Below are positions 9,899-26,603 of a stretch of 29,388 bases of DNA, piece by piece. Position numbers and translations under genes: made by a program. The notes beneath the pieces are model-generated. The model saw only the letters and a program-made list of their open reading frames with translations, did no database searches and was not told the DNA's origin. Each line of letters opens with the position of its first letter. Positions within the stretch are counted from its first letter, which is position 1. This DNA is from a virus: positions 1 through 29,388 of the IMG/VR virus record IMGVR_UViG_3300045996_000799; one strand, written 5' to 3'.

Positions 9899-10245
9899 TG
9901 GCTCAACTCCACTCCGTTCATTGCCGCCCATGCGTGCAAAAATTCAACGAATTCGCTTGCGTCCTGCTTGGTGAACTTGCGGGACTGCAATCCAATCTCC
10001 ACCACTCCATCCCCGGTCAGGTTGGGGATGACCTTTCCCCTTGGTCGCTTCGTCTCTTTGGCGAAGGCGTCCAGCAACAGGCGCTTCCAGCTCTCCGCGT
10101 CCCACTTCGATCCAAGGTGGGAGGCTTGCTCCGCGATTTCCGCGATAGCCGCGTGGTACTTTTCCTCTTGGCTGCGGGACTTGATGGGACGCGATGAAAG
10201 ACTCTCCGGCCGGTTAGTGGACGAGCCCACATGAAATGAATTCAC
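9895..10245 (-). CDS. ninB: NinB-like recombination mediator carrying an LGSS-type repeat at its N-terminus
   Basis: Residues from about 25 match lambda NinB (Orf), which helps load RecA-like recombinases on SSB-coated DNA: RSQEEKYHAAIAEIA, KWDAESWKRLLLDAF, IPNLTGDGVVEIG, then a C-terminal ASEFVEFLHAW. Compared with lambda NinB, about 45 N-terminal residues are absent. In their place stands a peptide encoded by the dispersed repeat (HVGSSTNRPESLSS). Compact NinB versions may exist in other phages, so true truncation is uncertain. GTG start (10243-10245) overlaps the upstream stop, with GGAG six bases before it. Confidence 0.85.
   Translation of the reverse strand: MNSFHVGSSTNRPESLSSRPIKSRSQEEKYHAAIAEIAEQASHLGSKWDAESWKRLLLDAFAKETKRPRGKVIPNLTGDGVVEIGLQSRKFTKQDASEFVEFLHAWAAMNGVELSQ
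10193..10231 (-). repeat. Dispersed repeat R1 (sense, start of ninB)
   Basis: In gene direction: GTGGGCTCGTCC, ten variable bases, CGGAGAGTCTTTCATC. It begins about 14 bases after the ninB start and encodes VGSS...PESLS in frame. Confidence 0.9.
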
Positions 10246-10394
10246 TTCCTGCTCCAGTTCTCATAAGCAGCACGCGGGGTCTGTCCACAGGCCCAAGTCA
10301 TGGAGGACTCAGCCAATCGACCACACCTCCACCAACCGCGATACAGCCACAGGCGAGGCTTGGCAGGCTTGGTGTCTTCAAGAAGGCTGACCAT
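10242..10394 (-). CDS. Small conserved phage protein (50 aa)
   Basis: Trp and Arg-rich peptide (RLWLYRGWWRCGR, then TWACGQTPRAAYENW) of a type often found in phage nin regions; no function is known. The ATG (10392-10394) is provided by the edge of an antisense repeat copy, with AAAGGA about ten bases upstream inside the same repeat. The stop overlaps the ninB GTG. So the repeat supplies both the ribosome-binding region and the start codon. Confidence 0.75.
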   Translation of the reverse strand: MVSLLEDTKPAKPRLWLYRGWWRCGRLAESSMTWACGQTPRAAYENWSRK

Positions 10395-10432
10395 GTGGGC
10401 TCGTCCTTTGCATAGGGCGGAGAGTCACGCTT
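10391..10432 (+). repeat. Dispersed repeat R2 (antisense, methyltransferase end)
   Basis: Plus strand reads GTGGGCTCGTCC, eleven bases, CGGAGAGTC. It covers the last codons of the methyltransferase gene (stop at 10425) and the start of the next gene, antisense to transcription. Confidence 0.85.
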
Positions 10433-11105
10433 CGATTCCAAGCTGCTCCGGCCTGCGGATAGGCTCGGCGGCGAAGAGGGGGCGTTGCTTGTAGGCTTGC
10501 TCGATGCGGCGGCAAGCGATGTCGAAGTACTTGGGTTCGCGCTCGATGCCGATGAAGGAGCGATGCATCTGCACCGCCGCCACACCTGTCGTGCCGGAGC
10601 CCATGAAGGGATCGAGAATTAACAGCGCATCTCCAACCTGCTCGATGCACCATTGCATGAGAGCCAACGGCTTCTGAGTGGGATGCTCTGGGCCTTCCTG
10701 CCAGAGATGCGTCCGGTGGAGTTGGAAAATGCGCAGCGGCTTGTCCAAGTTCGTGTAGGCAAGCTCGCCGTCCGACATCGTTAGGCCCTTCTGTGCCTTA
10801 TCCCAAACGAACCAGCAGCGCGCAGCCGGGAGCCCGAAGTAGTTGCCTCCCCAGATGACTTGCACCTTGGAACACGCCCGCAAGGCGTCAAACAATTCGA
10901 TGCTGGGCGTTTCGCTGTCCCACCCCATGAACTCATGCGCCTTGCGGAGCTGAGTCCCGTTCCTGCGCTCAGAGCCCTTCTGTCCATCTATGCCGATGCC
11001 GTAGGGCGGGTCCGTAATCACCGCATCCACCTTCGGCAGCGTCGGCAGAATCTCCATGCAGTCGCCCAGATACAGCCGGGCGTCTCCGATCTGCTCAACC
11101 CTCAT
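10425..11105 (-). CDS. DNA N4-cytosine/N6-adenine methyltransferase, beta class
   Basis: S-adenosylmethionine-dependent DNA methyltransferase of 226 residues. Motif IV DPPY (residues 32-35) comes first and the SAM-binding motif [10 protein letters not shown] (165-173) near the C-terminus, which is the beta-class order. HPTQKP (141-146) is also typical. It has no partner restriction gene, so it is probably an orphan enzyme that protects phage DNA or resets host marks. ATG at 11103-11105 overlaps the upstream gene by 11 bases. Its last codons lie within an antisense copy of the dispersed repeat, so its C-terminal tail may be repeat-derived. Confidence 0.93.
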
Positions 11106-13104: not shown

Positions 13105-13118
13105 GTTTTGTCTCCGGG

Positions 13119-13901
13119 TTAGGCGGTTGCCTTAGCGAGAGCTGCGTAGACCAGAGGCGTGACGGCGACAAGTTCGCGCCATTCCTCGTCCGTATAGTCC
13201 ACGAGGTTCCCGCCCTCCTTGCTGTCAGCGGCCACGGGAATCAGCTTTGCAAGCCGTTGCAGCGCCTCCAGCAGTTCCGGGGCTGCAGCTATCAGGCGGG
13301 CGTCTGCCTTCATTCGCTCAAGCGCGGGGGGTGCGATTTCCTTGCACCACTTCTGACCGTAATCCGCACCGTCTAGGCAGACAGGTCCAACGCGAATTCC
13401 GCCAGTCATGCAGTCGTATCCAAGGCAATCGTCGTACTCACCAATGGCCCACGGTCCCGGCGTGTGCGCAGCCTTTCCGAGACTCTCCGGCCCATTCGCA
13501 GGCAATTTCAACTTGACCGAGCTGTCCCCGGCTTCTCCACCAATCGGCTTGAACCCTTTAACTGAGCGGTCCAGCCGTTCGATTTCGGCCAGCATCAGCG
13601 CGGCGGCGCGCACTAGATTGCGGCGTCTGTCCTTCGGCTTCCACCACTGCACGGACCAGCCAGTCCACTCCCACAACTTGCGCAGTTCCACCGTGCCCAC
13701 CTGGATGGCGCGCTGGTCAGCGATGGCATAGCACGCTGCCGCCACTGCCATGGCACCGTCGCCGTGTTCGTCGTCGTGCTGCGCCGTCCAGCCCTCGGCA
13801 TTGATCTGGCGATGCCGCTCGGCCAGCACATCGCGTGCAGCCTCGGAAAGACTCTCCGCCGTGCCGCCGGACGAGCCCAAATGGTCTTTGTTGTCTTCCA
13901 T
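13119..13901 (-). CDS. Chimeric early protein: repeat tag plus two phage modules (260 aa)
   Basis: The N-terminus (MEDNKDHLGSSGGTAESLS) is repeat-encoded. Residues about 22-125 form a common phage module (RQINAEGWTAQHDDEHGDG, then WWKPKDRRRNLVRAAALML). After a second, degenerate repeat at the junction (LPANGPESLGKA), a different widespread module follows (HTPGPW..., then ARLIAAAPELLEAL). The latter also occurs alone as the 93-aa gene at 16707. I use ATG 13899-13901, right after the upstream stop, with GAGG nearby; the longer frame to 13988 would overlap another gene. Biochemical role unknown. Confidence 0.8.
   Translation of the reverse strand: MEDNKDHLGSSGGTAESLSEAARDVLAERHRQINAEGWTAQHDDEHGDGAMAVAAACYAIADQRAIQVGTVELRKLWEWTGWSVQWWKPKDRRRNLVRAAALMLAEIERLDRSVKGFKPIGGEAGDSSVKLKLPANGPESLGKAAHTPGPWAIGEYDDCLGYDCMTGGIRVGPVCLDGADYGQKWCKEIAPPALERMKADARLIAAAPELLEALQRLAKLIPVAADSKEGGNLVDYTDEEWRELVAVTPLVYAALAKATA
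13478..13512 (-). repeat. Dispersed repeat R3 (degenerate, at module junction)
   Basis: Keeps GACTCTCCGG (CCGGAGAGTC in gene sense) but the GGGCTCGTCC half is eroded. It encodes PANGPESLG between two domains of the 260-aa protein. Confidence 0.45.
13845..13881 (-). repeat. Dispersed repeat R4 (sense, gene start)
   Basis: In gene direction TTGGGCTCGTCC, ten bases, CGGAGAGTCTTTC. It begins seven codons into the 260-aa gene and encodes LGSSGGTAESLS. Confidence 0.9.
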
Positions 13902-13902
13902 G

Positions 13903-15603: not shown

Positions 15604-15614
15604 TGAGTTTCCGA

Positions 15615-15667
15615 AAGAGGTCTTGCCTGTAATATACAAGAGGTCTTTCATTTGCGCAAGTAGTCTT
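15615..15667. promoter_or_regulatory. Operator cluster 1 (OR-like): three AAGAGGTCTT dyads
   Basis: Copies of the dyad core AAGAGGTCTT occur at 15615-15624 and 15638-15647, and a variant AAGTAGTCTT at 15658-15667, spaced 23 and 20 bases. They overlap the early promoter, its spacer and its start region. Confidence 0.75.
15631..15659 (-). promoter_or_regulatory. Early promoter for cro operon (pR-like)
   Basis: Leftward -35 TTGCGC (plus 15654-15659), 17-base spacer, -10 TATATT (plus 15631-15636). The operator at 15638-15647 lies in the spacer. Confidence 0.75.
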
Positions 15668-15673
15668 GCCGAA

Positions 15674-16084: not shown

Positions 16085-16377
16085 TACACAGCGGGCAGAC
16101 AGTCGCTCCGGGGCGTGGCCCGCACTTGGGCAAGCACGCGCACCATCTCCCCGCCGGAGTCATCCATGCCGATCAGAAGCATGTCGGTAGACACTCCGTA
16201 CAGGATGGCTAGCTCGCGCAGCTCCAGCACGCTAGGCAGGGTACGCCCAGCCTCCCAAGAGGACACGGCTTGCCGTGTTCGCAGAAAGTCGCGGGCGACA
16301 TCCTGCTGGGTGAGTTCGGCGGCGAGTCTTGCCCGGCGCAACCGATCCCCTATTTCCTGGCGCATTTGAGCTTGCAT
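16081..16377 (-). CDS. XRE-family regulator (98 aa)
   Basis: Classic HTH_3 fold (about residues 10-65) with LRRARLAAELTQQDVARDF, then RQAVSSWEAGRTLPSVLEL. It is convergent with the CI-position gene, the two stops overlapping by four bases. AGGGGAAG sits just upstream of its ATG. Two regulators in one immunity region could be repressor and modulator or antirepressor; which is which is not decided by the sequence. Confidence 0.8.
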   Translation of the reverse strand: MQAQMRQEIGDRLRRARLAAELTQQDVARDFLRTRQAVSSWEAGRTLPSVLELRELAILYGVSTDMLLIGMDDSGGEMVRVLAQVRATPRSDCLPAVY

Positions 16378-16626
16378 TACTTCCCCTGATGGCGGCGGCG
16401 TTTGCCTTCTCGCTCAGACCATCGTAAGCCTTTCGAGGCGGCGTCCTACAGACGAATTACGAAAGGTTGAGTAAAGCAATCGTTGCGAGATTTAGCACGG
16501 TTGCCAGCCCATGTTTGCGCAGCGTTGCGCAACACTGGCTTTCCATCCAGCATCTTCGTCCCATCACAGGTACTACTTTCATCGGGGTTTACCCGTAGAA
16601 CGTCAAATTCCTGTTGCTCCGACTGA
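16378..16626. other. Non-coding immunity region with inverted repeats
   Basis: No gene is seen. Two inverted repeats stand out: CCTTTCG (16429-16435) with CGAAAGG (16460-16466), and a hairpin in which GCCAG/CTGGC (16503-16539) encloses TTGCGCA-GCGT-TGCGCAA (16515-16532). These could be operators of the 98-aa XRE regulator, whose gene starts at 16377. No clear promoter for that gene was found. Confidence 0.5.
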
Positions 16627-16663
16627 AAGACCTCTTGCGCTTTAACTGAAAGAGGTGTTTAAT
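16627..16663 (+). promoter_or_regulatory. Early promoter (pL-like) with operator cluster 2
   Basis: Plus-strand -35 TTGCGC (16635-16640), 17-base spacer, -10 TTTAAT (16658-16663). The dyads AAGACCTCTT (16627-16636) and AAGAGGTGTT (16650-16659) overlap the -35 and the spacer/-10. Same -35, spacing and operator as the cro promoter. Confidence 0.75.
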
Positions 16664-16699
16664 CTCTCCATCGGCTCTAACGAGCCAAACACTGGAGAG
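16664..16699 (+). other. Leader hairpin covering the first ribosome-binding site
   Basis: GGCTC-TAAC-GAGCC (16673-16686) forms an inner hairpin and CTCTCCA pairs with TGGAGAG (16664-16670, 16693-16699), so the GGAGAG in front of the first gene is in the outer stem. The inner part resembles a boxB (nut) hairpin. Functional role is inference. Confidence 0.45.
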
Positions 16700-16706
16700 A
16701 AGCGAG

Positions 16707-16988
16707 ATGAGCGAAGCGAAGCACACGCCGGGACCGTGGCACGCCGCACAGACGACCGTGTACGCGCTGCATGGTCATCCGCTGCGCAATCGTTTCAGCG
16801 CCTCGGTGCAGGGCGGCCGCCGCGATGACGCGGAGTGGGGTGAGCTGCTCGCCAACGCCCGCCTGATGGCTGCTGCACCGGAACTGCTGGAGGCGTGCCG
16901 CGATGCTTTGGACGCTGGCAACGATGGCGACTGGCAATCCGCAGAGAAGGTGCTGCGCGCCGCAATCGCCAAGGCTGAGGGAGCCTGA
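16707..16988 (+). CDS. Early protein with HTPGPW / AAAPELLEA module (93 aa)
   Basis: First gene of the plus-strand early operon, with GGAGAG seven bases before ATG. It begins with KHTPGPW and contains ANARLMAAAPELLEACRDAL, a module very common in unnamed phage early proteins. The same module forms the C-terminal half of the chimeric protein on the minus strand (13119-13901). Function unknown. Confidence 0.8.
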   Translation: MSEAKHTPGPWHAAQTTVYALHGHPLRNRFSASVQGGRRDDAEWGELLANARLMAAAPELLEACRDALDAGNDGDWQSAEKVLRAAIAKAEGA

Positions 16989-17022
16989 CATGGCCTACCA
17001 ACCCCACCCTACTGGAGATGAG

Positions 17023-17232
17023 ATGACCAACAGCCATGAAGTCCATTTGGTAGTGCCTTCCCTGACGGCGGAGAGTCTTTCATCGACCGCTGGCGTGGAA
17101 GTACCTGCCGCGCCTCTGCGGGTGCAGTCCTATCCGCTCACCGAGCAGCAGCGCGAAATGCTGTCCTGCCCTGGTGTGACGCATATCCCCGGACGAGCAG
17201 CCCTTGATGTGAAGGAAGATGACCGTGGCTGA
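17023..17232 (+). CDS. Small early protein with repeat-encoded N-terminus (69 aa)
   Basis: ATG 17023 has GGAG five bases upstream. ATG 16990 is an alternative that would add 11 residues. Residues about 8-22 (LVVPSLTAESLSS) come from a dispersed repeat copy. The remainder (YPLTEQQREMLSCPGV) resembles nothing I can name. Confidence 0.6.
   Translation: MTNSHEVHLVVPSLTAESLSSTAGVEVPAAPLRVQSYPLTEQQREMLSCPGVTHIPGRAALDVKEDDRG
17044..17085 (+). repeat. Dispersed repeat R5 (sense)
   Basis: TTTGGTAGTGCCTTCCCTGAC, then GGCGGAGAGTCTTTCATCG. Its left half is a variant shared only with copy R9 at 21181. Confidence 0.85.
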
Positions 17233-17452
17233 CCTGACCAACAACCAGCGCAACATCCTCAGCGCGGCCGCCGTCAACAAACTAGGCGTGGTCGAGCGTC
17301 CCTACCTACCCGGTTTCGAGGGTGTGACCTGGAACCGGAACGCGACGAAGCTGTGCGAGCGCGGCCTGCTCAAGCCTTACGTTCACGGTGGTTTCGAGAT
17401 TACCGATGCTGGTCGCGCCACCATCGCCAAGGCAACCGGCGACCTGACATGA
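17219..17452 (+). CDS. Hypothetical winged-helix-like protein (77 aa)
   Basis: Sequence LTNNQRNILSAAAVNKLG...TKLCERGLLKPY...FEITDAGRATI has the helix-helix-wing character of a small winged-helix protein. ATG 17219 overlaps the previous stop; GTG 17225 is a possible alternative with AAGGA upstream. DNA binding is inferred. Confidence 0.7.
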   Translation: MTVADLTNNQRNILSAAAVNKLGVVERPYLPGFEGVTWNRNATKLCERGLLKPYVHGGFEITDAGRATIAKATGDLT

Positions 17453-17616
17453 GCGGGTTTCTGCTCCATCGCTGTCTAGGCCTTGCCTACATCGTTGACG
17501 GGCTGTGCATCTTTTTCACTGGCCGCAGTCCGGTGTCGTCGCTTTCCGTTGCCCGGCACATGGCCCGGAGCCGTCTGAAAGCGTACGGATCAAATGAACA
17601 AAAGGATCAGCAATGA
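17449..17616 (+). CDS. Small hydrophobic protein (55 aa)
   Basis: ATG overlaps the previous stop (ATGA), and the gene ends four bases into the next. An N-terminal hydrophobic stretch (FLLHRCLGLAYIVDGLCIFF) suggests one membrane segment, followed by a basic tail. Function unknown. Confidence 0.6.
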   Translation: MSGFLLHRCLGLAYIVDGLCIFFTGRSPVSSLSVARHMARSRLKAYGSNEQKDQQ

Positions 17617-17924
17617 ACCTCGTCACCTTCCCTCCCCACTCCGACACCCTCGGAGCGCATGAGAACTACTCCGTACTGACAGACCAGGCAGACGAAGCAG
17701 ACATCCGCCGCCGCGCCGAAGAAGACGCAGGCGTCAGGACTCGGCCAGCAAGGAAGGAGATTGCCGCTCTGGCAACGAACCTCACCGAACTGGAGCTAGG
17801 GGCGCTTGTCTCGTCCCTCATCGGGGCAGTGGCTAAGTGTGGATGGAGCCATACCACTACCGGAAAGACGGTGACGGAGTACCTGCTGGATGTGCAGGAA
17901 GCTATTGAAAGGGGATGCGAATGA
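17613..17924 (+). CDS. Hypothetical protein (103 aa)
   Basis: Unrecognised, helical and charged. ATG overlaps the previous stop, with AAAGGA seven bases upstream. A central ELELGALVSSLIGAVAKCGW helix is the only hydrophobic stretch. Part of the tightly coupled early operon. Confidence 0.7.
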   Translation: MNLVTFPPHSDTLGAHENYSVLTDQADEADIRRRAEEDAGVRTRPARKEIAALATNLTELELGALVSSLIGAVAKCGWSHTTTGKTVTEYLLDVQEAIERGCE

Positions 17925-18121
17925 AAGTGCGATCCATCTTTGAAACTGGCACAACCCGCGTGGTGCTCATCGCTGAAACCGAGGCCGAGATGCGGATGCT
18001 CGGAGTGCTTGGCACGGAGATGGCCGCTACCGCCATCGTTCACCACGAAGGCCACGCAAGCTACAAGAAGGTGTCCTCCATCCAGATCGAGCTAACACCG
18101 AAGGCGGGGGAGCAGGCATGA
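17921..18121 (+). CDS. Hypothetical protein (66 aa)
   Basis: Small alpha/beta protein (MKVRSIFETGTTRVVLIAET, then MRMLGVLGTE) similar in style to other unnamed phage early proteins. ATG 17921 overlaps the previous stop, with AAAGGGG upstream. A 17-codon frame (18118-18171) follows it and overlaps its stop; I do not call it. Confidence 0.7.
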   Translation: MKVRSIFETGTTRVVLIAETEAEMRMLGVLGTEMAATAIVHHEGHASYKKVSSIQIELTPKAGEQA

Positions 18122-18170
18122 ACGCCCGTAACGCCCCTTTGAGGTTCGCCAGAAGGATGGGGGTTCTGTG

Positions 18171-18805
18171 ATGGCTCGCAATGTAGTGGTCAATCCAGGC
18201 GACAGATTCGGGTTCTTCACCGTTCTGGAGGAAGCACCGCGACAACGCCGAATTGACGGGACATCGCTCCGGGCCTTTGTTCTTCGGTGCGATTGCGGCA
18301 CTGTTAAGACTGTTCGGTTGGCCCATATCAAGGCGGGTGTGACTGTTAGCTGTGGCTGCTTCAACCGCACTGCAACCATGGCGAAGATGAGAGAGGCCCG
18401 GATCACCCACGGCGCTTCCAGAACTCCCGTTTACGAGGTGTGGAAGAAGATGAAGGGGAGATGCCACAACCCGGAGGATCGAGCATACCCATGGTATGGG
18501 GGACGAGGCATCGAGGTCTGCCAAGAGTGGCGAGACAGCTTTGAAGCCTTCGCCGCATACATGGCGAGCGCCCGGCCAGGATGAGCGTGGATCGCATCGA
18601 CACGAACGGCAACTATGAGCCGGGCAATGTGCGATGGGCCACCTATTCCCAGCAAGCCCGCAATACCCGTCGGAACATCTTGGTGATCTTGGACGGCTCA
18701 AAAGTCACCCTCGTGGAAGCGGCAGAGAAGCGTGGCTGGGTTTATGAGAAGGCCCGCACCGCGATACATCGGCATGGCGAATACCAAGGAGTTGCCCGTG
18801 TTTAA
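18171..18805 (+). pseudogene. HNH/AP2-like endonuclease gene broken by a one-base deletion
   Basis: The first part (18171-18584) has a CDCG/CGCF zinc motif, THGASRTPVYEVWKKMKGRC, and YGGRGIEVCQEWRDSF, then stops at ARPG. The second part (18581-18805) continues with [20 protein letters not shown], the conserved next block of the same family. Adding one G after 18563 (ATGGCG to ATGGGCG) would join them in frame as [14 protein letters not shown]. So a single base is missing from a G run. The gene is either inactivated, expressed as two pieces or read by frameshifting; a sequencing error is also possible. An intact product would resemble free-standing homing nucleases. Confidence 0.8.
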
Positions 18806-19007
18806 CCCACAACAGTATCGCGGCCTCCGATTTGAGCGGACGGCGAGCGCAGCGTTCAAGGATGCGTCCTACGCCGACCCCATCGAGGGACCGGAAGAAG
18901 GCCCCGGCCTGCTGATTAGCCCGATGTTCTGGATCGGGGGAATCCTGGCGGTCGCTTGCTGGACTGGCATCTGGATGGCGATTGCGTTCATTCTGGAGAA
19001 CATCTGA
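18798..19007 (+). CDS. Small membrane protein (69 aa)
   Basis: I choose GTG 18798, which overlaps the end of the broken endonuclease frame and has AAGGAG six bases upstream. ATG 18774 is weaker. The soluble N-terminus contains [13 protein letters not shown], and the C-terminus has one long membrane segment (about residues 44-67). Function unknown. Confidence 0.7.
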
Positions 19008-19243
19008 TGACCAAGAAACTGACGCCGTGGTTTCCGCCTGAAGTGAAGCCAGCAAGGAAGGGCGTGTACATCGGCAGCATCTTCCGGGACGACGGCCTGT
19101 ATCGCTATTGGGACGGCGTTGCTTGGTCGTTTCCAGAAGAAAGCCCACAGGAGGCTTACCGCTACCGCAAGGACGGCAAGAGAGGCCATAGCGAAATTAG
19201 TGAGGATGTGGAATGGCGAGGACTGGCACGGAGGCCAAGGTGA
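19007..19243 (+). CDS. Hypothetical protein (78 aa)
   Basis: ATG overlaps the previous stop (TGATG), with GGAG eight bases upstream. It contains PWFPPEVKPARKGVYIGS and YRYWDGVAWSF, a pattern common in small phage proteins of unknown role. Confidence 0.7.
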   Translation: MTKKLTPWFPPEVKPARKGVYIGSIFRDDGLYRYWDGVAWSFPEESPQEAYRYRKDGKRGHSEISEDVEWRGLARRPR

Positions 19244-19719
19244 ACCCGGCCCACAAGTGCAGCGACTCTGTTTGCTCAGAGAGGTATTGCGCTAACCGTT
19301 GTCCTTTCTTTACACCAGAGGAAGAAATGCAGAAAGACCGTTTTTCTTACTTGGGCTCGTCGGGAGATAGGCCGGAGAGTCTTGCAGAGGCCGCCATCGA
19401 GCACATCGCCAGCCAATGGGACGGATTCTTCTACGAAAACTCCTTCGGCGGAGACATCGACATCGGCGCGGCAATCCGAGAAGCGTTCGACAAGTTCATG
19501 ACGATGGAGCGTGCCCAGCCGTCGAGTGACTCTCCGGCGTCAGGTCGGACGGGCCAAAGTGAAAAAGACGGCTGTTCTGTCTCCACTCTCCAAGCACGAA
19601 TCACCGAACTGGAAGAAGCACTGGATGACTTGCTGGACCTCGTGCAATGGTCGGTGAGTTCGGACAGCCCCGCAATGGTCCGTGCCATCGCCGCACTGAA
19701 GGAGCCCAGCAATGACTGA
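19240..19719 (+). CDS. Mosaic early protein with internal repeat-bounded segment (159 aa)
   Basis: GTG 19240 overlaps the previous stop and has GGAGG five bases upstream; the longer frame from 19213 overlaps more. The N-terminus is Cys-rich (CSDSVCSERYCANRC), a probable zinc site. Residues about 37-108 are bounded by a sense repeat (19350) and an antisense repeat (19526), so this middle piece looks inserted. The C-terminus is coiled-coil (LQARITELEEALDDLLDL). Function unknown. Confidence 0.7.
   Translation: MNPAHKCSDSVCSERYCANRCPFFTPEEEMQKDRFSYLGSSGDRPESLAEAAIEHIASQWDGFFYENSFGGDIDIGAAIREAFDKFMTMERAQPSSDSPASGRTGQSEKDGCSVSTLQARITELEEALDDLLDLVQWSVSSDSPAMVRAIAALKEPSND
19350..19386 (+). repeat. 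Dispersed repeat R6 (sense)
   Basis: CTTGGGCTCGTCG, ten bases, CGGAGAGTCTTGC; encodes LGSSGDRPESLA inside the 159-aa gene. Confidence 0.85.
19526..19564 (-). repeat. Dispersed repeat R7 (antisense)
   Basis: Minus strand reads CACTTTGGCCCGTCC, then CTGACGCCGGAGAGTCAC after two bases. It is the inverted partner of R6 within the same gene and encodes DSPASGRTGQSEK in the gene's frame. Confidence 0.8.
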
Positions 19720-19903
19720 CGAAACGCCTATCGACAGAGGACCGTTGACCCAGCCCGTGGAGTTGTTCTGCAGTTCCTGCCGGGAGGGAGGATGCCCCGT
19801 TCCTGGCGCTTGTGAGATTCCTTCTGGTGAACAAGCACGAAGCATCAAGTTCCTGGCGGTTCTTACTGCTCTTCTTAGAACTACGAAAGGCAAACAGCCA
19901 TGA
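19712..19903 (+). CDS. Small Cys-rich protein (63 aa)
   Basis: ATG overlaps the previous gene's end, and its own stop overlaps the next start (ATGA). Residues about 19-34 (CSSCREGGCPVPGAC) look like a zinc or disulphide cluster. Function unknown. Confidence 0.65.
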   Translation: MTDETPIDRGPLTQPVELFCSSCREGGCPVPGACEIPSGEQARSIKFLAVLTALLRTTKGKQP

Positions 19904-20070
19904 ATTTCCACTTGGGCTCGTCCCCCCTGATAACGGAGAGTCTCTCCAAGGTTCGCGGCGTGCTCTCCGACCTGTCAGCCGTTTTCACCGAAGCCGTGCG
20001 CGTCTGGAAGCGCCGCAGATGGCTTCGCAACTACCGCGCTTCCATCCCTGATCCGTTCAACACCCACTAA
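19900..20070 (+). CDS. Small basic protein with repeat-encoded N-terminus (56 aa)
   Basis: ATG 19900 overlaps the upstream stop and AAAGG lies about nine bases before it. Residues 4-16 (HLGSSPLITESLS) are encoded by a dispersed repeat. The rest is a helix with a strongly basic stretch (VWKRRRWLRNYR), suggesting nucleic-acid contact. No known family. Confidence 0.65.
   Translation: MNFHLGSSPLITESLSKVRGVLSDLSAVFTEAVRVWKRRRWLRNYRASIPDPFNTH
19909..19950 (+). repeat. Dispersed repeat R8 (sense, gene start)
   Basis: CTTGGGCTCGTCC, ten bases, CGGAGAGTCTCTCCAAG, beginning about ten bases after the ATG at 19900. Confidence 0.9.
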
Positions 20071-20080
20071 GGACACGAAC

Positions 20081-20524
20081 ATGGCCAAGATTTCCGAAAT
20101 GCTCCCGAGCAACTACCTCAAGCAGACCGACTTTCCCGAGGACTACGTTGTCACCGTCCGCGCCATCGAGCGCAAGAACATCGCTATGGACGGCAAGCCC
20201 GCCGACTACAAGTGGCTCGCCCACTACAACGAGTTCGAGAAGCCGATGGTGCTGAACGCGACCAACATCCAGCTCATGGCGAAAGCCTGCGGATCGGATG
20301 ACACGGACGACTGGATCGGCAAGCAGGTGATTGTCTACGTGGACGAGAACGTGTCCTTCGGCGGCGAACTGGTCGGCGGCCTGCGCATCCGCAAGCACAA
20401 GCAAGCCGCTCCCGTGGCTCCGCGTGCTGCGGCCAATGCCCAGCGCCCCGGCCCGGCCCGTACCGTTGCCAGGGTGGGCGGTGACGGCCTGCCGGATGAC
20501 GACTTCGACCCCAGCCACCCGTAA
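20081..20524 (+). CDS. Early OB-like/ssDNA-associated protein (147 aa)
   Basis: N-terminal MAKISEMLPSNYLKQTDF, then beta strands and a conserved MVLNATNIQLMAKACG and DDWIGKQVIVYVDENVSF block. This is a frequent phage family near recombination genes, probably an OB-like fold. The tail is Ala and Pro-rich with acidic DDDFDP end, as in ssDNA-binding proteins. It is followed by a zinc-ribbon peptide and a Gp157-like gene. ssDNA binding is inference. Confidence 0.65.
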   Translation: MAKISEMLPSNYLKQTDFPEDYVVTVRAIERKNIAMDGKPADYKWLAHYNEFEKPMVLNATNIQLMAKACGSDDTDDWIGKQVIVYVDENVSFGGELVGGLRIRKHKQAAPVAPRAAANAQRPGPARTVARVGGDGLPDDDFDPSHP

Positions 20525-20790
20525 TGAAGCAGTGCAGCCGTTGCCTTCGATTCCTGACCCGCGCTTGCTTCGCGAAAGGAGCATCGCAGTGCAACGGCTG
20601 CACCAATCAGCGCGACCCGAAACCATGGGCCGCTGACGGCAAGCCGCTGGCAGAAGTCCTCAATAACTGGAGAACCCGTGACCGCACTCTACGAACTGGC
20701 GCACGCCTACCGCGACACAGCCGACCGGCTCGCGGACCTGGACCTGGACGAACAGACGATCACCGACACGCTGGAGAGCATGGCGGGTGA
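20524..20790 (+). CDS. Zinc-ribbon peptide, start of frame overlapping the next gene
   Basis: The start overlaps the previous stop (TAATG). Residues 4-27 hold CSRC and CNGC, a zinc-ribbon. The frame continues 113 bases into the Gp157-like gene, where the sequence looks like an off-frame translation, so either the real C-terminus is longer than useful or a frameshift ended it earlier. The N-terminal half looks genuine. Confidence 0.5.
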   Translation: MKQCSRCLRFLTRACFAKGASQCNGCTNQRDPKPWAADGKPLAEVLNNWRTRDRTLRTGARLPRHSRPARGPGPGRTDDHRHAGEHGG

Positions 20791-21175
20791 TCTGGAGGCC
20801 AAGGCCACGAACACAGCCATGGTGATCCGCAACATCGAAGCGAACGCCGCCGCGATCAAGGAAGCAGAGGCCCACATGGCAGCACGCAGGAAGGCGCTGG
20901 AGAACCGCGCAGCCCGCGTCAAGGACTACCTGCTGGCCAACATGATGGTCGCTGGTATCCAGAAGATCGAATGCCCGTACTTCAAGCTGTCCGTGCAGGA
21001 CAACCCCGCCGCCGTGGAGGTGTATCAGCCGGAGCTAGTCCCTGCGCAGTTCATGCGCCAGCCCGAACCGCCGCCACCAGCCATCGACAAGGCCGCGATC
21101 AAGGAAGCGATCAAGGCGGGCCAGGAAGTGCCGGGATGCCGCCTGACGCAAGGCAAGCGACTGGCGATCAAGTAG
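20678..21175 (+). CDS. Gp157-like (siphovirus Gp157) protein
   Basis: A 165-residue protein with TALYELAHAYRDTADRL at the N-terminus, then a long helix, ALENRAARVKDYLLANM, KIECPYFKLSVQDNPAAVEV, and a C-terminal PGCRLTQGKRLAIK. This is the Gp157 family (Streptococcus phage Sfi 157 type), associated with phage resistance or recombination genes but without proven mechanism. GTG start at 20678; usually found beside ssDNA-binding genes, as here. Confidence 0.85.
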   Translation: MTALYELAHAYRDTADRLADLDLDEQTITDTLESMAGDLEAKATNTAMVIRNIEANAAAIKEAEAHMAARRKALENRAARVKDYLLANMMVAGIQKIECPYFKLSVQDNPAAVEVYQPELVPAQFMRQPEPPPPAIDKAAIKEAIKAGQEVPGCRLTQGKRLAIK

Positions 21176-21180
21176 CAGCC

Positions 21181-21223
21181 GATGAGAGATTCTCCGTTGT
21201 CAGGAAAGGCACTACCGAGTGAA
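21181..21223 (-). repeat. Dispersed repeat R9 (antisense, after Gp157-like gene)
   Basis: Reads GATGAGAGATTCTCCG, four bases, CAGGAAAGGCACTACC on the plus strand, the inverted form of R5. It lies six bases after the Gp157-like stop. Confidence 0.85.
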
Positions 21224-21284
21224 CAAGATGAATCCTTCTATTCCTCTCCCCGATGATTCAGGGGGAGAACAGCCATGAAGGCAG

Positions 21285-21318
21285 ATTTGGGAGCGGCCAT
21301 CTGCACGGCGGAGAGTCG
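21285..21318 (+). repeat. Dispersed repeat R10 (sense, before C5 methyltransferase)
   Basis: ATTTGGGAGCGGCC, then ACGGCGGAGAGTCGCGG after five bases. It is shorter and more diverged. It ends just before the methyltransferase GTG at 21324, and a 20-codon frame (21275) would translate it as LGAAICTAES. Confidence 0.7.
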
Positions 21319-21323
21319 CGGAG

Positions 21324-22025
21324 GTGCCTTTGAATGAGCTGGCACTGTTCGCGGGCGCTGGTGGAGGCTTGCTCGCTTCCCGTCTGCTCGGATGGAGGAC
21401 CGTCTGTGCGATTGAGTGGAACCCGAGCGCAGCGGCCATCCTCGCTGCGCGACAAAACGATGGATCGCTTGAGCCATTCCTTGTGTGGGACGACATCCGC
21501 ACCTTCGACGGGATGCCTTTCAGGGGCCGTATTGACATCGTTTCTGGCGGCTTTCCCTGTCAAGCCTATTCCTCGGCGGCTGCGGGAAACAACACTGCGG
21601 ACGACCTCTGGCCGGAGCAACGCAGGATCGTGGCAGATGTCGCTCCCAGGTACGTATTTGCCGAGAACGTCCAACGACGCGCGATCGATCGGGCCGCAGA
21701 CGACCTCGAGGCGCTGGGTTACGAAACCCGCTGTCTTTCCCTTAGCGCGCAGGACTTGGGTGCTGACCACATTCGGTCCAGGCATTGGCTTCTTGCATAC
21801 GCCGACGACCCAAGGGAACTACTGCGCACCGTCGATGCAGAAGCACCCATCCTGCCGGGCATGGAACACCGTGTTTGGGAAAGTGACCCCGGAAGCGCAG
21901 GAATGGCTGATGGGCTTTCCTCGAGGATGGACCGCCTTGCAGCCACTGGAAACGGACAGGTTCCAGTCGTGGCTGTCGCTGCACTACTCACCCTTGCCGC
22001 TGCGGCTGGCAGCGTGAAGGGATGA
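21324..22025 (+). CDS. C5 cytosine DNA methyltransferase (compact)
   Basis: A 233-residue Dcm-type enzyme. Motif I FAGAGG (9-14), motif IV GFPCQ with catalytic Cys79, motif VI ENV (114-116), motif VIII RSR (151-153) and motif X GNGQVP (209-214) are all present, but the space between VIII and X is short, so the target-recognition region is small. GTG start (21324) follows the repeat R10. The stop TGA (22023-22025) lies inside repeat R11, so the whole gene is bracketed by inverted repeats. It probably protects phage DNA from host restriction; no partner nuclease is seen. Confidence 0.88.
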   Translation: MPLNELALFAGAGGGLLASRLLGWRTVCAIEWNPSAAAILAARQNDGSLEPFLVWDDIRTFDGMPFRGRIDIVSGGFPCQAYSSAAAGNNTADDLWPEQRRIVADVAPRYVFAENVQRRAIDRAADDLEALGYETRCLSLSAQDLGADHIRSRHWLLAYADDPRELLRTVDAEAPILPGMEHRVWESDPGSAGMADGLSSRMDRLAATGNGQVPVVAVAALLTLAAAAGSVKG

Positions 22026-22065
22026 AAGATTCTCCGCCGTCCGAATCGTCTCCGACCAAATGAAA
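22021..22065 (-). repeat. Dispersed repeat R11 (antisense, end of C5 methyltransferase)
   Basis: Plus strand: GATGAAAGATTCTCCG, then CCGTCCGAATCG and a TCTCCGACCAAATGAAA variant edge. Its TGA is the stop of the methyltransferase gene. Confidence 0.85.
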
Positions 22066-22138
22066 AAGCATCTCCCCTCCCCCTTCTGACTCCAGAGTTA
22101 TCTATATAGCCTATGAGTGACAAACAGCCTTCAATTCA

Positions 22139-22178
22139 ATGTGGGCTCGTCCTCCTTCCATTCGGAGAATCTTTCATA
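22139..22178 (+). repeat. Dispersed repeat R12 (sense, before excisionase)
   Basis: TGTGGGCTCGTCC, ten bases, CGGAGAATCTTTCATAG. It is the only sense copy with AATC and forms a 15-base perfect inverted match with R11. Confidence 0.9.
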
Positions 22179-22179
22179 G

Positions 22180-22476
22180 ATGTCTGACCTGAACCGCCAG
22201 CAGCTTTGCGCGGCCCTGAGCATCAGCGAAAGCCATGTCCGCAGGTTGGAGCGGTACGGCCTGCCCTGCACTCCTGTTGGCGTCAGGTCGAAGCGCTATA
22301 ACCTTGACGAATGCAAAGAATGGCTGAGGAATAACCCATGTCCATCTGGACGGACAAAAACGGGCGTAAGCACGTCGGCCTTATGGTCGGGGGGCAGAGA
22401 GTACACCGCATCCTTCCGAAAGAGGCAACTGCGCGTGATGCCAAGCGGATCGAATCCCAAATCCGAGAATCCCTAG
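22180..22476 (+). CDS. xis: Excisionase/MerR-like HTH protein
   Basis: N-terminal LNRQQLCAALSISESHVRRLERYGLPC is a MerR-type helix-turn-helix seen in phage excisionases, and YNLDECKEWLRNN ends the fold. The frame then runs 139 bases into the integrase gene, where it probably has no function. The ATG is directly after the repeat R12 and no good ribosome-binding site is seen, so translation may depend on a short upstream frame (see findings). Directly upstream of integrase, as expected for xis. Confidence 0.7.
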   Translation: MSDLNRQQLCAALSISESHVRRLERYGLPCTPVGVRSKRYNLDECKEWLRNNPCPSGRTKTGVSTSALWSGGREYTASFRKRQLRVMPSGSNPKSENP

Positions 22477-23357
22477 AGCGGGACAAGTCGGTCAACATCC
22501 CCGGCAATCCGTTAATCAGCGAAGTCATGACCCTGTACATCGCCCACGCCAAGAATCTGCGCTCCCCGGCCACGGCGAAGTACCACGCCGAGCGAGCTGG
22601 CCCTTGGGCAGAGAAGTACCGCGCCAGCCAAGCCCGCCAGTTCGCCGCCGAACTCATCTCGGACATGACTGGGCCTTACGCTGCCGCCACCATCAACCGG
22701 ACGCTAGGGACCGTGAAGAAGGCGCTGCGCATGGCTTGGGAACTGGGGCGCACCCCCGAGGACTTCGGGCAGCAGATCAAGCGCCTGCCGGAGAACAACG
22801 CCCGCGATGTGTACCTGACCCGCGAACAGGTCGCCAAGATCGCCAGCCATGCGAGCCCGGCCGTCGCCAGTGCAATCTGGATCGCCCTTTACACAGGGGC
22901 ACGGCGGGGGGAGGTGTTGGCAATGCAGCCGCAGGACGTAGGGCCGGACTTCATCACCATCCACGCGAGTAATACGAAAACGCTCAAGACGAGGGCCGCG
23001 CCGATCACTGAGGCGCTTCGGCCGCACTTGGCCGCCCTACCCCTGCCCCTGAACTTTGAAGGGCTCAAAACAGGGTTTAGACGCGCCAGAGAGGCCGCCA
23101 AGATGGAGCATGTGAACTTCCACGACCTGAGGCATAGCTGTGCGGCCATCTTGATCGCCAGCGGGACGGACATCTACACGGTGTCCAAGGTGCTCGGCCA
23201 TTCGTCGGTGAAGACCACAGAACGCTATGCCCACCAGGACGTTTCCAAGCAGACGGAGGCCCTGAAAAAAGCCTTTGACTCTGGACGGATTGCACCGACA
23301 ATTACACCGGGCAAGAAAAAGGGGAGCCCGAAAGCTCCCCATGTCATTGGTGGGTGA
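22338..23357 (+). CDS. int: Tyrosine-recombinase integrase
   Basis: A 339-residue integrase. Catalytic residues are visible: Arg189 in TGARRGE, His262 and Arg265 in HDLRH, His288 in LGHSS, and the nucleophile Tyr297 in RYAHQ. The N-terminal part (about 1-60) is a DNA arm-binding type region, followed by a SAM-like core-binding region (about 60-150). ATG 22338 has GAGG eight bases upstream. Its last codons overlap attP, and a minus-strand terminator is encoded within its 3' end. It integrates the phage into a tRNA-Val gene. Confidence 0.95.
   Translation: MSIWTDKNGRKHVGLMVGGQRVHRILPKEATARDAKRIESQIRESLERDKSVNIPGNPLISEVMTLYIAHAKNLRSPATAKYHAERAGPWAEKYRASQARQFAAELISDMTGPYAAATINRTLGTVKKALRMAWELGRTPEDFGQQIKRLPENNARDVYLTREQVAKIASHASPAVASAIWIALYTGARRGEVLAMQPQDVGPDFITIHASNTKTLKTRAAPITEALRPHLAALPLPLNFEGLKTGFRRAREAAKMEHVNFHDLRHSCAAILIASGTDIYTVSKVLGHSSVKTTERYAHQDVSKQTEALKKAFDSGRIAPTITPGKKKGSPKAPHVIGG
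23315..23340 (-). terminator. Rho-independent terminator inside the integrase 3' end
   Basis: Minus-strand hairpin GGGGAGC, loop TTTCGG, GCTCCCC, followed by TTTTT (hairpin 23320-23340 in plus coordinates). It begins about seven bases after the 3' CCA of the tRNA-Val segment. Confidence 0.85.
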
Positions 23358-23394
23358 TGCAGGGTTTGAACCTGCGACCCCTGCCGTGTGAAGG
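23348..23394 (-). other. attP core: 3' half of tRNA-Val(CAC)
   Basis: Minus strand reads from the anticodon loop TTCACAC (U33, anticodon CAC, A37) to 3' CCA: anticodon-stem strand, variable loop, T-arm GCAGG-TTCAAAC-CCTGC, acceptor 3' strand ATCACCC, discriminator and CCA. The 5' half of the tRNA is missing. It follows the integrase gene and overlaps its last codons. Plus strand continues into phage genes, so this is attP. Confidence 0.88.
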
Positions 23395-23438
23395 GGAATA
23401 CGGCGAAACGTGCGCTAGGCTCCCACTAGGAAAGGACG

Positions 23439-23951
23439 ATGCTGATGGGCAGGAAACGGCGGGAAACGGCAGAGGAATGCACCCGAAATGCACAGGAGAT
23501 GCCTCTGGCGTGGGGCGGCTACATCATCCGTCCGACTGATCGCAGGTATGCGGACATCCGGGAAGCGCCGAACACCTCCGGCATCTACGCTTGGTACGCC
23601 AAGAACGGCTACCTGATGTACGTTGGGAGGTCTGTGCAGATTGCCACCCGGCTGCGGCAGCATCAGATGACCAGCTTCACGGCCAGGCCCAGCCTATTCT
23701 CATTCCTGGAAGTGCCTGATCGCCTGATTGCGGCGGTGGAGGGTGCTCATATCCGGGTGCTTGCGCCGATAGAGAACCGGGCTGGTGAGTCCCGCTCTAC
23801 CTCGTTTCAGAAGGAAATGGAGGCCGCGATTGAGGCTGAATGGCGGGACGTGCTTCCTGTGCAGACGGAATGGCTAGATGCTGCATACAGCAGGATCATG
23901 GCAGCAGTCGCAGAAGGAATGGAGCGGGATCGTTTGGCCCGCTTCAAGTGA
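23439..23951 (+). CDS. GIY-YIG endonuclease-like protein (170 aa)
   Basis: The motif SGIYAWYAKNGYLMYVG, followed by RSVQIATRLRQHQ, is a GIY-YIG nuclease signature. A later Glu-containing helix (ESRSTSFQKEMEAAIEAEW) may provide the metal-binding residue. ATG 23439 with AAAGGA just upstream; ATG 23445 is an alternative. It lies beside attP and outside the main operon, a typical accessory position. It may be a homing or host-DNA nuclease. Confidence 0.75.
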   Translation: MLMGRKRRETAEECTRNAQEMPLAWGGYIIRPTDRRYADIREAPNTSGIYAWYAKNGYLMYVGRSVQIATRLRQHQMTSFTARPSLFSFLEVPDRLIAAVEGAHIRVLAPIENRAGESRSTSFQKEMEAAIEAEWRDVLPVQTEWLDAAYSRIMAAVAEGMERDRLARFK

Positions 23952-23994
23952 TTGCAGCGAGCCTGTAGGCATCCTTAATGAAAGGGAAGTGAGA

Positions 23995-24411
23995 ATGGAA
24001 GACAAAGACAGTTCGGTCAATTTGGGCTCGTCCATCCTGACAGCGGAGAGTCTTTCCAAGATTGCCGTCATTCGTCACACGCTGATGACTGGCTTGGCGC
24101 ATAACCCGGCAATCCATGCACTGGATGAAATTGCTGCTGAAAGAGCGGAACTGCTGCAAGCCGCTTTCCGGCGTGGTGTTGATGCTGCCCGTGGCGGGGC
24201 GGTGCTGGGCCGCGTGCTCGCGCCCAATGATCCGTTCTGCCCTAAGTGCGGTCACAACCGGGATACGTCCAGCGTTTCCAGCGTGGACCTTGGCGACGGT
24301 TGGAAGGGCTGCCAGTTTTGCGGAACGGAGTGGAAAGAACTGCCAGACGCTGACGCGCCCCACCGGCCGATGAAAGATTCTCCGCCGTCCGAAGCGGACG
24401 AGCCCAAGTGA
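23995..24411 (+). CDS. Zinc-ribbon early protein bracketed by inverted repeats (138 aa)
   Basis: Starts MEDKDSSVNLGSS, very like the N-terminus of the minus-strand chimeric protein (MEDNKDHLGSS). Residues about 78-105 contain CPKCG and CQFCG, a four-Cys zinc ribbon. The N-terminal repeat R13 is sense, while the last 13 codons (MKDSPPSEADEPK) are the antisense repeat R14 read in the opposite direction. So both ends of the protein are repeat-encoded. Function unknown. Confidence 0.75.
   Translation: MEDKDSSVNLGSSILTAESLSKIAVIRHTLMTGLAHNPAIHALDEIAAERAELLQAAFRRGVDAARGGAVLGRVLAPNDPFCPKCGHNRDTSSVSSVDLGDGWKGCQFCGTEWKELPDADAPHRPMKDSPPSEADEPK
24018..24061 (+). repeat. Dispersed repeat R13 (sense, gene start)
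   Basis: ATTTGGGCTCGTCC, ten bases, CGGAGAGTCTTTCCAAG. It is close to consensus. Confidence 0.9.
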
Positions 24412-24414
24412 AAT
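24369..24414 (-). repeat. Dispersed repeat R14 (antisense, gene end)
   Basis: Plus strand: GATGAAAGATTCTCCG, then CCGTCCGAAGCGGACGAGCC and CAAGTGAAAT. It ends the 138-aa gene; the stop TGA (24409-24411) is within it. Confidence 0.9.
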
Positions 24415-24416
24415 AG

Positions 24417-24488
24417 AAGGATGTTTGGTTATCCTGCCTTTACCGATATTGGCAGTACAACCATCCTTACCGTTTAGCGGTAAACGGT
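24417..24488. other. Two structured hairpins between early genes
   Basis: The first hairpin pairs AAGGAT, GGTT and CTGCC with GGCAG, AACC and ATCCTT (24417-24468, 12-base loop). The second is ACCGTTTA-GCGG-TAAACGGT (24469-24488). They lie between the last repeat and the final plus-strand gene. No U-run follows, so they are not obvious terminators; regulatory role unknown. Confidence 0.5.
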
Positions 24489-24506
24489 CAACCAATGGAG
24501 AGAGAG

Positions 24507-24740
24507 ATGGAACTACCTGAACTGCCGGAGCCCCCGAGCTACGAGTCAGCCTACGACGAGGCTCCGCTGACGGACCACTACTCCGCCGACCAGATGCGAG
24601 CATTTGGAGAGCAGTGCATCCTGCTAGAGAGGGAGCGCGCGGCACAAGCGTGTTTGGCTGGGTTTGCCAAGGGCGTGCTTGAAAGCGAGGCAGCCCAATG
24701 GTGTGCCGCCGTAATCCGTCATCCTAGCGAGCCTGCATGA
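24507..24740 (+). CDS. Small phage protein with MELPELPEPP start (77 aa)
   Basis: I choose ATG 24507, with GGAG five bases upstream; ATG 24495 is also possible. The sequence has the pattern MELPELPEPP...YSADQMRAFG...ERERAAQACL, a common unnamed early phage family. The 3' end overlaps the convergent membrane gene by 17 bases. Confidence 0.75.
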   Translation: MELPELPEPPSYESAYDEAPLTDHYSADQMRAFGEQCILLERERAAQACLAGFAKGVLESEAAQWCAAVIRHPSEPA

Positions 24741-24888
24741 CCCTATCCAGCCACAACAGACCTATGTTGGCTCCGGCGTAGTGATAGTAGACGATAGCTA
24801 GCGGCCAGTTCTTCTGATACCCGTACACCGCTGCAGCCAGGGCGTAGCTCACGGTAGGAACGCACAGGAGCCAGAAGGACCAGCTCAC
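24724..24888 (-). CDS. Small membrane protein (54 aa)
   Basis: I use GTG 24886-24888, with GGGAGG five bases upstream and overlap with the preceding micro-gene. Two hydrophobic segments, FWLLCVPTVSYALAAAVYG and WPLAIVYYHYAGANIGLLW. This is the last gene of the minus late accessory block. It might assist lysis; not proven. Confidence 0.65.
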   Translation of the reverse strand: MSWSFWLLCVPTVSYALAAAVYGYQKNWPLAIVYYHYAGANIGLLWLDRVMQAR

Positions 24889-24992
24889 CAAAGCCTCCCA
24901 ATAACGACGATGGCAGCGCCCATCAGAGCCAACTGAGCCAGCCGAAGAACAATCACTACGCCGATGCAGACCCATTCGGTAATGGCGTTCAT
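24885..24992 (-). CDS. Micro-membrane protein (35 aa)
   Basis: One hydrophobic segment (WVCIGVVIVLRLAQLALMGA, then AIVVIG). ATG 24990-24992 has AGGT about eight bases upstream; its TGA overlaps the next GTG. It may act with the following membrane protein; function unknown. Confidence 0.55.
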   Translation of the reverse strand: MNAITEWVCIGVVIVLRLAQLALMGAAIVVIGRLW

Positions 24993-25029
24993 AACGTATA
25001 CCTACATGGAACGGGCGTTCTGTTCACTT

Positions 25030-26184
25030 TTACGCCACCATTCCGACATCGCAGCGGTGCCGCTCAATCTCACCGTGCTCCCGATGGTGGACGATTAGCT
25101 GCATGTCCCGCCCCGCCCGATAGCCTTGCCCTTGATGCCAGGCATCCCGAGCCGCTAGAGTCCTGACGTACTCCACCAGCCCACCCGGATACTCCTTAAC
25201 GTCCTTGTGGTGAACGTGGCCGACATACCAGTACCTATGGGTCGTCTGGCCCCATTCCACGGGTTTGTCAGCAGCCATGACCGCGAGCATGTCCTTGCCC
25301 TTGATCGTGTCGCCGTGGGTTGATCCGATCATCACCTTGCCAAACTGGAAGTACCAGCAGGGAGCCGGAGACAGGTCTACTTCTACCCGAGGGTCGTTGT
25401 GGAAGTAGCAGGACAGCATCAGGGCCAGCGCATAGGACGAGTGCCCATCGTGGTTGCCCTTGTTGATGCGGACAATCACTCTCTGGTGCTTCTCCAGCAT
25501 TCGCCGGATGCAGTGAATCTTCGCCCGCAGACCAACTTGTTGTACCTTTGCCCACCTTCCGTCTACATCTAATTGGTGTCCAGAGGCGGTGACGTTCTTC
25601 TGGTTGTCCGCGTGGAACATATCCCCGAGGTTCAGGAGGACGCCTGCAGACCCTTCGGGAGCTGCTGATACCAACCTGTCAACCGCGCTGCAAGTCAGAC
25701 GTTCAGCTATGTCCAGGTCGAAGTCTGCCCCGGCGTCCTGCCACCAGGCGTACATGCCGAAGTGGGGATCGCCCCATGGGTACACACACAGCAAGGCATC
25801 GTTGCTGTACGCCGGGGGAGTAGAGACAGGAGCCAGCCCTTTGACGCTCTGCGCCAGGCCGTCAGCGAACTCCCTAAGCATCTGCGCCTGCCGGTCCTCG
25901 TCCTGTACCGACTTCACCCATTGGGACGACAGCTTCCCATCCACGTACAGGGATGAGACGCCCTTGACCTTGTAGCCGTCTGGAACCGTTCTTGTAAGGT
26001 CATGCTCAGGAGAGTAGCCCTTGCTCGCTGCCCTTGCCTTGACCCGTTGGAGCGCGGCCCTGAGCGTCTTGCCGTCAACCTTAAGGGCCTTGGCGGCTGC
26101 ACGCTGGGAGCCGTGCTTGTCTACCGCTTCAAGGTATTCCAGCTCCCTTACCGTGGCGTATGAGGCAAGCTGGGCGTCCATCAT
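25030..26184 (-). CDS. Metallophosphoesterase with N-terminal HTH (384 aa)
   Basis: Calcineurin-like phosphoesterase. The metal-binding set is present in order: D139-x-H141 (GDPHFG), GD187-188 (LGDMFHAD), GNHD 243-246, H290-G-D292 and GHVHH 322-326. Residues 10-50 form a helix-turn-helix (GSQRAAAKALKVDGKTLRAAL), so the enzyme probably acts on or near DNA. Substrate unknown; a phosphodiesterase or nuclease role is possible. It is coupled to the HslV-like gene (TGA/ATG overlap). Confidence 0.85.
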   Translation of the reverse strand: MMDAQLASYATVRELEYLEAVDKHGSQRAAAKALKVDGKTLRAALQRVKARAASKGYSPEHDLTRTVPDGYKVKGVSSLYVDGKLSSQWVKSVQDEDRQAQMLREFADGLAQSVKGLAPVSTPPAYSNDALLCVYPWGDPHFGMYAWWQDAGADFDLDIAERLTCSAVDRLVSAAPEGSAGVLLNLGDMFHADNQKNVTASGHQLDVDGRWAKVQQVGLRAKIHCIRRMLEKHQRVIVRINKGNHDGHSSYALALMLSCYFHNDPRVEVDLSPAPCWYFQFGKVMIGSTHGDTIKGKDMLAVMAADKPVEWGQTTHRYWYVGHVHHKDVKEYPGGLVEYVRTLAARDAWHQGQGYRAGRDMQLIVHHREHGEIERHRCDVGMVA

Positions 26185-26603
26185 TTCAGCTTGTGAACGT
26201 AGACCTTGCCGCCAGACAGGTTGTCGATCTGGCAGGCAATCTCTACTGCCTTCTTGGCGTCCGCTCCAGCAAGGTACGCAGCCAGGGCAAGACTTCCGCC
26301 AGAACCGATCCCCATGTAGCCACGGTCCATGACGAAGTAGCCCCCGGCGCTGTCCAGAACCCTAAGCCCATTTGGGCCTAAGATGAGGGCGCTGGAATTG
26401 GTGATCTTTGGAGCGGGACCGTTCATCCCAGCCCTGTACCAAGCCAGCCACCTATCGCCCTCCGTAGCGACTCCACAGAAGCCGATCAGCTCGTCTCCGA
26501 TGCGGACAACCTTGTTGGGGTCTTCCCACCACTGATCCCCGCTGGTTGCCTTGGAGTCGGCAACCATCACCCCTTTGCGGGCGTCTGCAAAGATGGTCGT
26601 CAT
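26181..26603 (-). CDS. HslV/proteasome-like Ntn hydrolase (140 aa)
   Basis: Starts MTTIFADARKGVMVADS, as HslV starts MTTIV, so the nucleophile would be the N-terminal Thr after Met removal. Counting from it, Asp15 and Lys30 (NKVVRIGDE) match HslV Asp17 and Lys33. Later IGSGGSLALAAYLAG is the usual Gly-Ser-Gly block. There is no partner HslU-like ATPase here, so it may use the host's. It could process virion proteins or host proteins; both are inference. Starts right after the upstream stop. Confidence 0.75.
   Translation of the reverse strand: MTTIFADARKGVMVADSKATSGDQWWEDPNKVVRIGDELIGFCGVATEGDRWLAWYRAGMNGPAPKITNSSALILGPNGLRVLDSAGGYFVMDRGYMGIGSGGSLALAAYLAGADAKKAVEIACQIDNLSGGKVYVHKLK

Follow-up and report, generated by a model that had tools for sequence, protein, structure and literature searches.

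The window analysed here is a metagenome-assembled IMG/VR viral record of 29,388 bases, whose portal and terminase are related to podovirus counterparts and which carries a tyrosine integrase gene and an early region encoded on both strands. Among its genes is one for a C5 cytosine methyltransferase that is bounded by two copies of a repeat in opposite orientations (Table 1). As the initial annotation had stated, the sense (S) copy lies directly before the GTG codon at 21324, where the methyltransferase ORF starts as listed, and the antisense (AS) copy holds the stop codon, TGA 22023-22025, within its first bases. Because relatives begin at 'ATGAATGAGCTG', the true start is probably TTG 21330, 12 nt past the core of the repeat; the S copy itself carries a short leader ORF whose stop overlaps the methyltransferase start.

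The two copies are not a chance pair, since they are members of a family that a profile HMM recovers 13 times in the window with E values of 1e-11 to 1e-6, and 57 copies with 9-nt cores are present in six related viral contigs. The repeat is about 45 nt long, with a nearly invariant 9-nt core (CGGAGARTC), a left half that falls into several subtypes, and a consensus in the sense direction of about TTTCATTTGGGCTCGTCC-N-GACGGCGGAGAGTCTTTC. All eight S copies in the window stand at gene starts and four of the five AS copies at gene ends, on either strand, the exception being the copy at 19521 within an ORF. By this orientation rule the methyltransferase is one of several identically framed genes, with conserved islands separating neighbouring slots. 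The repeat noted earlier at the 3' end of the other methyltransferase gene obeys the same rule, for this N6/N4 methyltransferase gene (10425-11105, minus strand, PF01555 match) ends inside an AS copy. The repeats are probably cassette ends, and many early and accessory genes in this group of temperate podoviruses would sit in slots with S at the 5' side and AS at the 3' side.

Table 1. Repeat copies and associated features of the window (S, sense copy; AS, antisense copy)
Feature	Coordinates	Strand	Remarks
S repeat fused in frame to ninB (9895-10245, minus)	10193..10236	-	
AS repeat, 3' end of N6/N4 methyltransferase gene	10389..10433	+	
S repeat fused in frame to gene 13119-13901 (minus)	13843..13886	-	
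S repeat near start of rightward gene series	17041..17084	+	
S repeat fused in frame to ORF 19327-19719	19345..19388	+	
AS repeat inside ORF 19327-19719	19521..19564	-	sole copy away from an ORF end
S repeat fused in frame to ORF 19900-20070	19906..19949	+	
AS repeat just past Gp157 gene (20678-21175)	21181..21224	-	
Leader ORF carried by S repeat	21275..21337	+	20 aa, MKADLGAAICTAESRGGAFE
S repeat, 5' end of C5 methyltransferase cassette	21281..21323	+	profile HMM; core CGGAGAGTC 21309-21317
C5 cytosine methyltransferase, swapped gene	21330..22025	+	PF00145 E 1.4e-22; start by homology
AS repeat, 3' end of methyltransferase cassette	22021..22065	-	holds stop codon
S repeat before excisionase-like/integrase module	22135..22178	+	different genes follow in G002, G008, G009
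Excisionase-like (22180-22476) and tyrosine integrase (22338-23357) genes, next slot	22180..23357	+	
S repeat forming N-terminus of ORF 23995-24411	24016..24059	+	
AS repeat forming C-terminus (KDSPPSEADEPK*) of ORF 23995-24411	24369..24413	-	

Relatives were obtained by a pattern scan of viral contigs (G001, G002, G003 and G004) and, through subtype scans of viral contigs, G008 and G009 were added; the contigs are metagenome assemblies, with one metagenome the source of four of the six. Gene calls are ORF-based, and the S and AS classes outside the window follow an operon direction inferred from homology. G001 is near-identical to the window across 12.9 kb. Each end of contig G004 overlaps with G009, by 94 and 127 nt (100% identical), and the two are probably parts of one circular phage genome that was split by assembly. 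The GTDB species genomes held no convincing copy of the repeat, just two isolated hits in unrelated phyla, roughly as many as chance would give, and so lend no support to a host-genome repeat. An element specific to the methyltransferase is ruled out, as the repeat frames many unrelated genes and the family was found in none of the 80 methyltransferase relatives searched; a repeat general to related podoviruses is likewise ruled out by its absence from 14 Gp157-bearing loci, EBPR podovirus 2 and a Bradyrhizobium phage. The integrase used as a query for further relatives gave zero matches.

Presence or absence of the methyltransferase gene at the repeat borders could be compared in three relatives (G002, G004 and G008), all of which hold different genes there. 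On the left side of this slot (slot C), the 34 nt before the core and the core itself (43 nt) are identical in the window and the three relatives; what follows is the C5 methyltransferase in the window, a PAPS-reductase-like gene in G002 and G004 (52% identical to each other, with a Pfam match slightly below the curated cut-off) and an unrelated short ORF in G008. On the right side, near-identity is back from the AS core GATTCTCCG and extends through the island to the next S core, where the genomes diverge again. The cassette proposed in the initial annotation is supported by this comparison, because other genes lie between shared flanks in three relatives: the methyltransferase gene is exchangeable and the repeats are its borders, but such a unit is not particular to methyltransferases, since the repeats frame many unrelated genes too. 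Elsewhere, the slot of gene 13119-13901 holds a PNKP-type phosphatase in G004, the sequence after the S copy at 17041 is unrelated in all four genomes compared, and ninB, preceded by the repeat in the window, lacks it and has its own start in G008 and G009. The site at G002 11870 was ruled out as a second example of an empty site, the flanking gene being different in G008. Relatives' slots hold nucleic-acid repair genes (G008 13078-14316, G004 9533-9987): in G008 an S copy is followed by an RtcB RNA ligase, and in G004 the PNKP-type phosphatase bears the tag as a fusion.

All pairs of copies were compared, with outer flanks scored as homologous at an identity of at least 0.70 and the inside taken as the 60 bases inward of the core. 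In this comparison, whose pair and block-end counts are non-independent owing to the relatedness of the genomes and the inclusion of both members of each pair, 42 pairs had homologous outer flanks, and identity inside the core was at background level in 41 of them (0.44-0.67; background 0.51, sd 0.04), the lone exception being the cassette common to G002 and G004; homology-block ends in the accessory regions lay no more than 15 bases from a core 43 times against 8.0 expected, a value reached in 0 of 5000 shifts, and 43 of the 57 cores had such an end. Profiled base by base over 30 of these pairs, identity is high ahead of the core, reaches 1.0 within it save for the variable R, and has dropped to chance about nine bases further on. 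The repeats are short and diverged, and one could take them for chance matches or for shared regulatory sites unrelated to gene exchange; given HMM E values reaching 1e-11, the number of cored copies in six contigs and the excess of block ends at cores, we consider this highly improbable. Instead, the repeat appears to mark interchangeable gene slots. The exchange points vary, coinciding with the core in some slots (those of S 21281 and S 22135) and with the outer edge of the repeat body in others, as in the slot common to G003 26758, G004 5185 and G008 8228, where the outer flank matches completely and divergence already affects the repeat body. The same gene was not found in two different slots among the genomes compared.

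Several swaps end exactly at the almost invariant 9-nt core, inverted ends frame the gene, and tandem S copies stand before the integrase of G002 (7146-7247), as if the second had landed right after the core of the first. These features would suit a core that is the site of a site-specific recombinase or transposase, with the gene and its inverted ends forming a mobile cassette. We find such an explanation improbable, as no resolvase family gave a hit in the six genomes and a common enzyme is lacking; the tyrosine integrases differ between genomes (about 30% identical between the window and G002) and those of the window and G002 are slot content themselves. Furthermore, exchange points are variable, no cassette was found in two slots and, unlike in a transposon or MITE, no target-site duplication is visible beside the inverted repeats at slot C or the ninB site. 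The likeness to a small transposon or recombination unit drawn in the initial annotation is thus not upheld: no site-specific recombinase shared by the group was found, and exchange points scattered over the repeat make homologous recombination a better fit than a transposon-like unit.

The initial annotation did not note that S copies have the look of translated sequence, or that AS copies are usually the source of stop codons. A single leader frame, common to the S copies, runs open through the repeat in 34 of 35 of them. Every one of the 35 could start in this frame at an upstream codon, and the frame is maintained by the spacing in 33 of 35 (one via a +9 insertion) versus 8 of 20 AS copies (Fisher p 2e-5 for 32/34 vs 8/20). 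The leader peptide (xxHLGSSxxTAESLS) either forms a fusion with the gene product or terminates at the gene's own start codon, with several ATGA overlaps. The domain after a fused tag is nearly complete in the PNKP phosphatase (from residue 21) and NinX (from residue 24); the Pfam match of NinB begins at residue 22, yet from profile position 40 only. In AS copies the stop is usually at -5 or -1, or about +33 past an in-frame tail such as KDSPPSEADEPK. From these reading frames we infer that the leaders in S copies are translated. The AS and S copies of one island can possibly pair as RNA (z -2.05 and -1.82), a weak hint that such pairing could couple translation; a hairpin of the whole AS and S copies as a conserved unit is unsupported, the subtypes of the halves varying independently.

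The open leader frame of S copies at gene starts and the possible AS-S pairing would also agree with repeats that are mainly expression elements (leader peptide, ribosome site, coupling hairpin), conserved since genes need them, in which case the sharp borders would come only from conserved islands and gene turnover by ordinary illegitimate recombination. A precedent is offered by the start-linked SAS/ESAS sequences of cluster K mycobacteriophages, for which a role in translation has been proposed (PMC3203893). Expression alone, however, leaves unexplained why the same sequence is inverted at gene ends, why copies are mosaic inside the repeat and why ninB occurs both with and without it; moreover, the pairing z-scores are modest and the AS and S halves in one island are often of different subtypes. 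We therefore rate this explanation as rather unlikely.

The reading we favour, as fairly probable from the comparisons of these genomes, is that of a repeat at gene boundaries through which swapped genes stay expressible, swapping itself proceeding via phage homologous recombination. Recombination on short shared islands and repeats would replace one gene body by another, with annealing proteins (ERF/Sak type, NinB/Orf matches) as the proposed actors. Homologous recombination fits because related genomes differ by swaps at one position that is flanked on either side by conserved islands, and experiments with lambda have established that Rad52-like recombinases and orf drive mosaicism over short diverged homology (PMC3945230). 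An ERF annealing protein is encoded in G002 (4813-5202) and a Sak annealing protein in G008 (10735-11115), while NinB is present in every genome (G004 and G009 counted as one; G003 with a match under the Pfam cut-off). The window itself yielded no single-strand annealing protein. As the annealing recombinase differs between G002 and G008, the recombination module itself has been replaced. The S repeat may keep an incoming gene translatable by contributing a start codon followed by a leader (about 10-25 codons) that would either continue in frame into the gene or end at the gene start codon, typically as ATGA; GGAG in the core may act as the ribosome site. Stop codons would usually come from the AS repeat, either at +33 or at its edge (-5). 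Both this recombination pathway and a selection for modularity are what we infer from such patterns. Recombination on islands would seem to explain swaps within a slot, but not the same sequence at starts and, inverted, at ends. It is conceivable, if somewhat doubtful, that one sequence serves as a universal start plug and, inverted, as a universal stop plug, a dedicated phage design for gene capture; if so, a gene landing between two copies would be exchangeable and immediately translatable, and the repeat would be maintained through promoting the turnover of accessory genes.

Several known systems resemble this arrangement in part. According to later papers that cite the original work (PMC4503421 and PMC3950731), the PeSL (promoter early stem-loop) cassettes of T4-type phages (Arbiol 2010; Comeau 2014) carry dispersed motifs between accessory genes that are credited with modular shuffling; the repeat described here is likewise dispersed and was found at the borders of shuffled genes. 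As those papers describe them, PeSLs combine a promoter and a terminator-like stem-loop between genes, whereas our repeat reaches into coding sequence and is inverted at gene ends. Consensus scans of 16000-25000 revealed no enrichment of promoters of the consensus type covered (1 promoter-like site vs 2.8 expected) or of terminators (6 terminator-like sites vs 7.8 expected). The SAS/ESAS sequences, suggested to be possible recombination targets, are similar in their many copies, their location in the non-structural half and at gene starts, and their ribosome-site-like core, but SAS is a 13-nt sequence, GGGATAGGAGCCC, that closely precedes gene starts, almost always has the same orientation and does not occur at gene ends (PMC3203893). 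The repeat here differs from SAS/ESAS in its length and sequence, its coding nature, and its occurrence in both orientations with inversion at gene ends. For lambdoid phages, Clark (2001) reportedly described brief conserved stretches at the borders of genes, through which unrelated genes can be exchanged by homologous recombination. The concept of such boundary sequences is cited in PMC3029335. A conserved short sequence between non-homologous genes of related phages is what we found as well, but lambdoid boundary sequences differ from border to border, while here many borders carry members of a single repeat family, which is present in either orientation and provides start or stop codons. 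Rickettsia palindromic elements are short repeats translated in frame within unrelated proteins, inside genes; the present copies, in contrast, are at N- or C-terminal ends and mark borders of gene exchange. Integron gene cassettes have sites in the same orientation, unlike the inverted copies that frame each gene here. To our knowledge, and as far as the open-licence literature shows, none of the compared systems is known to use one sequence as both a coding start leader and an inverted stop region, and this symmetric coding use at starts and stops appears to be a new variant of boundary-sequence mosaicism.

Whether the mosaic borders of phages arise from illegitimate recombination or from boundary sequences has long been disputed, in part because boundary sequences could not be found at most borders (PMC3029335). 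With one recognisable repeat at many borders in several genomes, the boundary model is therefore directly testable. The repeat suggests a possible way of keeping swapped genes expressible, and it calls for caution in annotation, as N-terminal tags of such phage proteins may represent leaders or scars of exchange instead of protein domains.

A few further features of the window were seen. A 41-nt inverted repeat pair (13263-13303 and 16855-16895; 93% complementary), unrelated to the cassette repeats, flanks the divergent early region. AAGAGGTCTTTCA-like repeats at 15614-15650 and 16624-16660 surround repressor-like HTH genes (15473-16377) and are possibly operators. A gene at 26181-26603, which adjoins an exonuclease-family gene (25030-26184), matches an HslV-type peptidase family (phrog_1040).
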